DNA from: a virus
IMG/VR virus record: IMGVR_UViG_3300048029_000266
Coordinates: 1 to 64,000 of that record
Reading direction: 5' to 3' (one strand)
DNA length: 64,000 nt
Every line of letters begins with the position of its first letter. Position 1 is the first letter of the stretch. The translations under genes were made by a program, and so were the position numbers. Below are positions 43,290 through 43,581 of the stretch, piece by piece. Under the pieces are notes generated by a model that did not search any database, had not been told where the DNA came from, and saw only the letters and a list, made by a program, of their open reading frames with translations.

Positions 43290-43302
43290 CAGTCTGATTA
43301 TC

Positions 43303-43355
43303 AATTAGTTAAGCGGTAACACCTTGAAATTGTGCGCTATAGTGTTAAACTAATT
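43303..43355 (+). ncRNA. Long stem-loop upstream of the ribozyme
   Basis: AATTAGTT (43303-43310) pairs with AACTAATT (43348-43355), and TAACAC (43317-43322) with GTGTTA (43342-43347), interrupted by a 6-base bulge AAGCGG. That gives 14 pairs around a 19-base loop. It begins 13 bases after the stop of the first gene. It could protect the 3' end left by ribozyme cleavage or be part of a larger structured RNA. Confidence 0.55.
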
Positions 43356-43376
43356 TATTTAAGTAATCAAGATGGT

Positions 43377-43384
43377 TAGCTTTG
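43377..43384 (+). promoter_or_regulatory. Possible -7 promoter box (TAGCTTTG)
   Basis: TAGCTTTG fits TAnnTTTG and would place a transcription start about 85 bases before the ribozyme. No TTG lies at the -33 distance, so I consider it weak. It is immediately followed by a 6-bp stem (GTTACT at 43384-43389 with AGTAAC at 43419-43424). Confidence 0.3.
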
Positions 43385-43474
43385 TTACTGTATTAGTTTG
43401 TTATTCTATTATTTAATAAGTAACATTCCAATATGGCCTCAAAGTTAGCCGTTTTTTTTTACAAAGTCAAGTCC

Positions 43475-43529
43475 TTTCTGTCCACAAATGAGTATTTGTG
43501 CTGATGAGTTCAAAAGAACGAAACAGAAA
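43475..43529 (+). ncRNA. Type III hammerhead ribozyme
   Basis: All core parts are present in order. Stem III 5' strand TTTCTGT (43475-43481) is followed by the cleavage-site C at 43482. Stem I is CACAAAT/ATTTGTG (43483-43489 and 43494-43500, 7 bp, loop GAGT). The CTGATGA core is at 43501-43507. Stem II is GTTC/GAAC (43508-43511 and 43516-43519, loop AAAA), with the invariant G-C closing pair. Then come GAAA (43520-43523) and the stem III 3' strand CAGAAA (43524-43529). Stem III has 7 pairs including the conserved A-U. The open helix is stem III, so it is type III. Predicted cleavage is after 43482, inside the leader between the first and second rightward genes. Confidence 0.93.
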
Positions 43530-43538
43530 TAAGCCCAA

Positions 43539-43574
43539 ACACGGTTCGGCCATCGACAATAGATGTTAGCGTGT
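43539..43574 (+). promoter_or_regulatory. Stem-loop between ribozyme and next start codon
   Basis: ACACG (43539-43543) pairs with CGTGT (43570-43574), with an inner CATC/GATG stem (43551-43554 and 43563-43566). It ends 7 bases before the ATG at 43582, so it overlaps the ribosome-landing zone of the message created by ribozyme cleavage. Confidence 0.45.
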
Positions 43575-43581
43575 AATAACT

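Follow-up and report, generated by a model that had tools for sequence, protein, structure and literature searches.

A putative modular RNA-processing leader with a hammerhead ribozyme in a crAss-like phage operon

Why does a phage genome in which most neighbouring genes touch or nearly touch leave almost three hundred nucleotides (nt) between two small genes read in the same direction? The question is raised by virus record IMGVR_UViG_3300048029_000266 (67,431 bases), of which bases 1-64000, hereafter the window, were analysed. The gap between the first two genes of its long rightward operon (positions 43290-43581, 292 nt) is the longest among the 77 same-strand gaps in the window (the next-longest being 240 and 175 nt, with 64 of the 77 at 30 nt or less and 35 at zero or overlapping). 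An initial annotation of this DNA had regarded the length as unusual and suggestive of a dedicated RNA device around a ribozyme. Taken as a whole the gap folds with a z-score of -2.7. Based on the comparison with its relatives, we consider that the gap is a modular messenger RNA (mRNA) processing and control leader, and we give this reading about two chances in three. The idea of a dedicated device is upheld by that comparison, in which the length of the 5' part is constant and pairing persists in the 5' and 3' modules, while the interior between them is exchanged.

Constant ends and an exchangeable interior

Relatives of the leader were collected from IMG/VR by scans with two neighbouring proteins, one downstream protein and DNA patterns. 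With the window left aside, the 5' part was found in 16 relatives and the 3' part in 14. The DNA scan with AAGCGG...GTGCGCTATA returned 81 contigs, many of them by chance, and the analysis was restricted to those showing the complete context; one candidate, L022, was discarded as a chance match. In the resulting 5' alignment (17 sequences including the window) the mean column identity is 88% and the length, where complete, is 186-187 nt. Columns 9-85 are 82-96% identical to those of the window, even though the identity of the protein encoded by the gene just upstream (gene 1) drops to 43-47% in the farthest relatives.

The 5' module contains a pseudoknot core (Table 1) which is 100% paired in the 17 sequences, two of its pairs having changed on both sides; the AGCG/CGCU arm never varies and thus carries no covariation test. 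The 14-pair stem that had been annotated here (43303-43355) proved to be a composite: conservation, with covariation at two positions, is confined to the six inner pairs, whereas the pairing of the outer eight in relatives (77.9%) does not exceed that of shuffles, and these were dropped. The annotated 6-bp stem further on (43384-43424) had to be abandoned altogether, being 58.8% paired, devoid of compensating changes and in competition with a far stronger fold.

The core is followed by a long hairpin, absent from the helices proposed earlier, whose stability was equalled by none of 200 shuffles. Its base stem was re-paired sequence by sequence, because a one-base offset between two groups of relatives misleads the consensus fold, and in this way it is found paired in 17/17 sequences, with compensating changes between the groups (GGUUAGC/GUUAGCC in one, GYUGGAC/GUUCGGC in the other). 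The T-run noted in the initial annotation is real (T43452-43460), and the combination of a stable hairpin with an immediate U-run, as in intrinsic terminators, occurs in all 17 sequences. The hairpin does not have the compact G+C-rich stem and short loop of such terminators, since it spans ~83 nt, with a 14-pair stem and an extended inner stem. It resembles a terminator or attenuator more than an end protector. The protection of a new 3' end, suggested in the initial annotation, is not supported for the helices named there but is plausible for this hairpin; given that the hairpin is kept in loci without a hammerhead, shielding hammerhead ends cannot be its sole role.

The ribozyme itself is near-certainly a type III hammerhead, which was the only significant match in an Rfam E-value scan of the gap region (at the curated cut-off, Rfam found nothing in the entire window). 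Its minimum-energy fold is the three-stem hammerhead, with stems I, II and III of 7, 4 and 7 pairs and stem III open, and it carries the core CUGAUGA and GAAA together with the cleavage triplet GUC (CUGANGA...GAAA and NUH being required). Among relatives the core changes only at N7, a position free to vary, and a pair change in stem II is compensated. Self-cleavage at the expected position, between C43482 and C43483, is strongly indicated by this sequence and by the fold. The cleavage anticipated in the initial annotation is very likely in the window, but it is not a constant of the family, the hammerhead being present in 6 of the 17 complete loci.

What is exchanged lies between a constant CAAGTC and the constant 3' pseudoknot. 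Across the 17 complete loci this interior holds the hammerhead alone (the window, L015 and L019), the hammerhead with a small open reading frame (ORF) and a transfer RNA (tRNA)-like module (L016, L017 and L018), the tRNA-like module alone (L020, L021, L023 and L024) or with a short hairpin spacer (L027 and L052), or a different small ORF with the tRNA-like module (L035, L041, L045, L055 and L117). In total, 6 loci have the hammerhead, 14 the tRNA-like module, 3 both and none neither. The inserted ORFs are unrelated to each other and belong to no known family. The interpretation of the interior as a group I intron, a transfer-messenger RNA (tmRNA) or an attachment site was rejected, there being no intron, tRNA or tmRNA match.

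The 3' pseudoknot is 100% paired in the 12 distinct rows of the 3' alignment (slid controls reach 21-36%), with 5 of its 12 pairs changed on both sides. The stem that had been annotated just before the gene 2 ATG (43539-43543/43570-43574) turned out to be one arm of it, 3 of whose 5 pairs are doubly changed. Considering that the pseudoknot ends 7 nt before this ATG, control of the gene 2 translation start is plausible. A second pseudoknot of similar plan lies before the ATG at 44190 and is 100% paired in 7 sequences, with two pairs changed on both sides and an invariant CCC/GGG arm, which supports the use of pseudoknots at gene starts in this phage. A UAACCA-like sequence is found upstream of it, as at the first pseudoknot. 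The T4 gene 32 mRNA also has a pseudoknot upstream of a phage gene start (PMC535899, PMC3014915), but the one in the window differs in sequence, has an inserted hairpin, lies 7 nt from the start codon and adjoins unrelated small genes, with no known binding protein.

Table 1. Positions of the leader modules and adjoining genes in the window.
Feature	Position	Strand	Basis and remarks
Gene 1 of the rightward operon, 97 amino acids	42996-43289	+	ORF; relatives at 43-93% identity
5' pseudoknot core (43312-43315/43335-43338, AGCG/CGCU, and 43317-43322/43342-43347)	43312-43347	+	pairing in relatives
Long hairpin entering the T-run	43371-43453	+	-28.6 kcal/mol, z = -7.4; terminator-like or 3'-protecting
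Nine-T run after the hairpin	43452-43460	+	sequence; at least 6 T in all 17 sequences
Type III hammerhead ribozyme	43475-43529	+	Rfam RF00008, 45.2 bits, E 2.5e-8
H-type pseudoknot with inserted hairpin (43533-43535/43548-43550, 43539-43543/43570-43574 and 43551-43554/43562-43565)	43533-43574	+	
Gene 2, 88 amino acids	43582-43848	+	ORF; relatives found; ATG 7 nt past the pseudoknot
Second pseudoknot, similar plan (44139-44145/44164-44170 and 44159-44161/44178-44180)	44139-44180	+	before the ATG at 44190

The two exchanged modules in other phages

The tRNA-like module, of which the covariance model R3 finds no copy in the window, has the form AACCURU-AUUGGAU...-T-stem-UUCGAUU-T-stem'-AYAGGU in the leader family, and it covaries. 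A scan with the pattern ATTGGATN{5,9}GGTTCGATTCC, in which pairing was not required, gave 68 viral contigs; outside the leader family about half of the contigs have an acceptor helix and a T-stem, of differing sequences, and these copies lie mostly at most ~100 nt before a start codon. The same pattern gave 62 contigs in a cellular collection of 257 billion bases, six of them with an acceptor helix of at least 6 pairs, and two of these six match a viral copy exactly. Across 29 diverse copies, changes on both sides are seen in 12 of 13 pairs and the covariation score is 0.98 versus 0.20 in shuffles, the variety of pair types being the informative part, as these copies were selected for pairing. 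With the T-stem fixed at six pairs and up to 10 allowed in the acceptor helix, the latter has 6 pairs (39 copies) or 7 (21 copies), never 8-10.

A T-loop with a 12-13 bp acceptor/T-stem stack, as in minimal substrates of RNase P, is thus present in 60 module copies; a stack of 12-13 bp is the distance that RNase P measures from the T-loop, and synthetic acceptor/T-arm hairpins are cleaved by RNase P RNA (PMC11143913, PMC4919913). On these structural grounds the module is probably a site for the host RNase P. Compared with minimal substrates of the AT1 type and with C4 RNA, the modules are natural and intergenic, keep a D-loop-like linker and mostly have no RCCA end; their cleavage by RNase P is a prediction, and it concerns relatives and other phages, not the window. 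The C4 antisense RNA of phages P1 and P7 is a phage RNA cut by RNase P.

Model R3 found copies in 15 of 20 viral records, with up to seven full-length copies in one 47-kb record, and none in 19 cellular genomes (E <= 0.01, with no more than 150 candidates scored in each genome). The module has no family in Rfam, tRNA and tmRNA detection made no call on those of the leader family, and those of other phages gave sub-threshold partial tmRNA matches only; the one tRNA-Trp call by ARAGORN, in L166, does not coincide with the modules listed there. Weaker matches occur in the named phages Mycobacterium phage LittleCherry (49918-49960) and cyanophage P-SSP2 (8799-8840), and in Hardygib1 virus. The literature searched, outside which most subscription journals lie, holds no description of such a module.

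Several further observations were made on these elements. They stand before many different genes in many unrelated phages (L137, L139, L125, L133, L169, L154, L157, L166 and others), in several copies per contig, covarying and nearly absent from cellular genomes. In other phages (L169, L125, L172, L132 and L335) a short hairpin frequently stands between the element and the start codon, its CAATAATG-like loop being comparable to the ACAATA loop of the pseudoknot hairpin in the window. A 67-kb phage contig (L130:1071-8779, + strand) has a run of T-arm elements that belong to a different type (TGGTTT...GGGTAAT...TTCAATT) and vary in their linkers, and cyanophage P-SSP2 (L357:660-740) has, upstream of its first T-arm element, a second one with a longer linker and a possible anticodon-like arm.

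As for the hammerhead, a scan for its core pattern matched at least 120 viral contigs. Among the 127 hammerhead-like sites listed, 101 lie outside ORFs of at least 60 amino acids, and 79 of 93 are directed at the next gene, at a median of 55 nt before its ATG. Among the matches listed, 47 distinct cores fit type III (five of these coming from the leader family of the window), and most of the type III cores have a stem I loop pattern like that of the window (~RUGWGUNY) and a short stem II. The shared loop pattern, the short stem II and the placement before genes make the ribozyme of the window an ordinary member of a phage group. Seven of the 120 hammerhead contigs listed also have a tRNA-like module, always on the same strand as the hammerhead. 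In one contig (L136:2051-2117, - strand) a type II hammerhead scores over the Rfam cut-off, with a tRNA-like element on the same strand ~2.2 kb away, and five others (L287, L304, L317, L318 and L278) have two or three type III hammerheads each, differing in stem I sequence and sharing the loop pattern.

For intergenic phage hammerheads, some of them with activity shown, a role in dividing long transcripts into gene-length mRNAs has already been suggested (Perreault et al. 2011, PMC3088659). The hammerhead of the window resembles these phage and prophage examples in being of type III, between phage genes, on the sense strand and just before a start codon, but differs from them in its setting, a conserved leader of several modules that include a hairpin/T-run and a pseudoknot, and in being swapped for a tRNA-like module in relatives. 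The theta ribozymes of gut phages (Kienbeck et al. 2024, PMC10879173) are likewise small self-cleaving phage ribozymes near tRNA structures, but they are hepatitis delta virus-like and adjoin real tRNAs, unlike the leader family, in which the hammerhead goes with a tRNA-like module lacking anticodon and D-arm, before protein genes. The hammerhead part is of a known kind; the modular leader and its hammerhead/tRNA-like exchange appear to be new.

Genomic setting

Judged from its proteins, the phage whose rightward operon includes the leader is crAss-like: the large terminase is ~30% identical to crAss-like phage terminases (further matches being Cellulophaga and Flavobacterium phages), and the portal and capsid proteins match phage families. 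A similarity search of the window DNA against named phages found none. Genes run leftward over 37287-42809, and from 42996 onward the long rightward operon begins with small genes, after which come a DnaB-like helicase and an SSB-like protein. The gene 1 protein has no PHROG or Pfam match and belongs to no known family; that of gene 2 has sub-threshold Pfam matches only. For the small winged-helix-like protein (phrog_1123) encoded further downstream, at 44728-44985, the best named matches come from phages that infect Pseudomonas, Vibrio, Pectobacterium and Klebsiella and are far from crAss-like phages; one of them, phage MR4, is an autographivirus.

Proposed working of the leader and its alternatives

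In the mechanism that we propose, transcription of gene 1 would enter the 5' module, where the hairpin and U-run would halt part of it or shield a 3' end. In the RNA that reads through, the hammerhead would cut itself between C43482 and C43483 (the step most strongly indicated), freeing the gene 1 mRNA, whose 3' end would then lie near the hairpin, and leaving the operon mRNA with a new 5'-hydroxyl end closed by the stem I hairpin. The pseudoknot before the ATG, a structure demonstrated by covariation, would then gate the translation of gene 2, and the second pseudoknot may gate the start at 44190 likewise. In relatives, the tRNA-like module, a probable host RNase P site to judge by its geometry, would supply the cut, either in place of the hammerhead or alongside it.

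Several observations weigh against this interpretation. For an intrinsic terminator the hairpin is of large size, and a consensus terminator scan, which admits loops of up to 8 and so excludes it, did not report it. Taken alone, the 5' core has no exceptional thermodynamic stability (z = +0.67). The hammerhead scores slightly under the Rfam curated cut-off of 48.5 bits, a library threshold and not a property of ribozymes, and it is not found in most relatives, so that it cannot be a requirement of the operon. The RCCA end preferred by RNase P is missing from most of the tRNA-like modules. Finally, the 17 complete loci represent few independent lineages, and the 17/17 pattern is thus suggestive, not a statistic.

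The presence of the hairpin and U-run in 17/17 sequences, with or without a hammerhead, and of a structured core just upstream would also be expected if the constant part set the ratio between gene 1 and the rest of the operon, either as a regulated terminator (attenuator) or as a put-type RNA antiterminator, with the cutting modules as mere passengers at a recombination-prone junction where the inserted small ORFs vary as well. We regard this as rather unlikely, considering that no complete locus lacks both cutting modules, that the stem II change in the hammerhead is compensated and that the tRNA-like module covaries at the leader site, which means that it is maintained there. The terminator-like end, together with the strongly conserved unpaired bases (GAAAUNGUGCGCUAUA) and the contrast between the core columns and the diverging gene 1 protein, would suit instead a small RNA acting in trans, made from the 3' end of gene 1 up to the T-run, with the hammerhead and pseudoknot separately serving the downstream mRNA. 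This alternative is improbable, because the promoter scan found 7 candidates where 4.1 were expected, none of them prominent, and because the 5' module always adjoins 3' modules.

The sub-threshold score and the patchy distribution of the hammerhead could also mean that it is an inactive relic and that the flanking structures are all that matters. To this we assign a very low probability, in view of the E-value, of the intact catalytic core and of relatives in which nothing but the free core position and a compensated stem II pair has changed.

Returning to the processing leader, a wider version of it, to which we would give somewhat less than an even chance, is that the tRNA-like elements form a widespread, so far unrecorded phage class recruiting the host RNase P to cut polycistronic mRNA ahead of chosen genes, with hammerheads as an interchangeable substitute, as in the leader of the window. 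If true, phages would have two portable tools to cut operon mRNA gene by gene, a self-cutting ribozyme and a tRNA mimic that borrows RNase P; nature would have carried out an exchange of one for the other in the leader of the window and its relatives, and many orphan phage hammerheads would gain a concrete role. Although the module is not in the window, the tRNA-like leader element could outweigh the main finding in importance.
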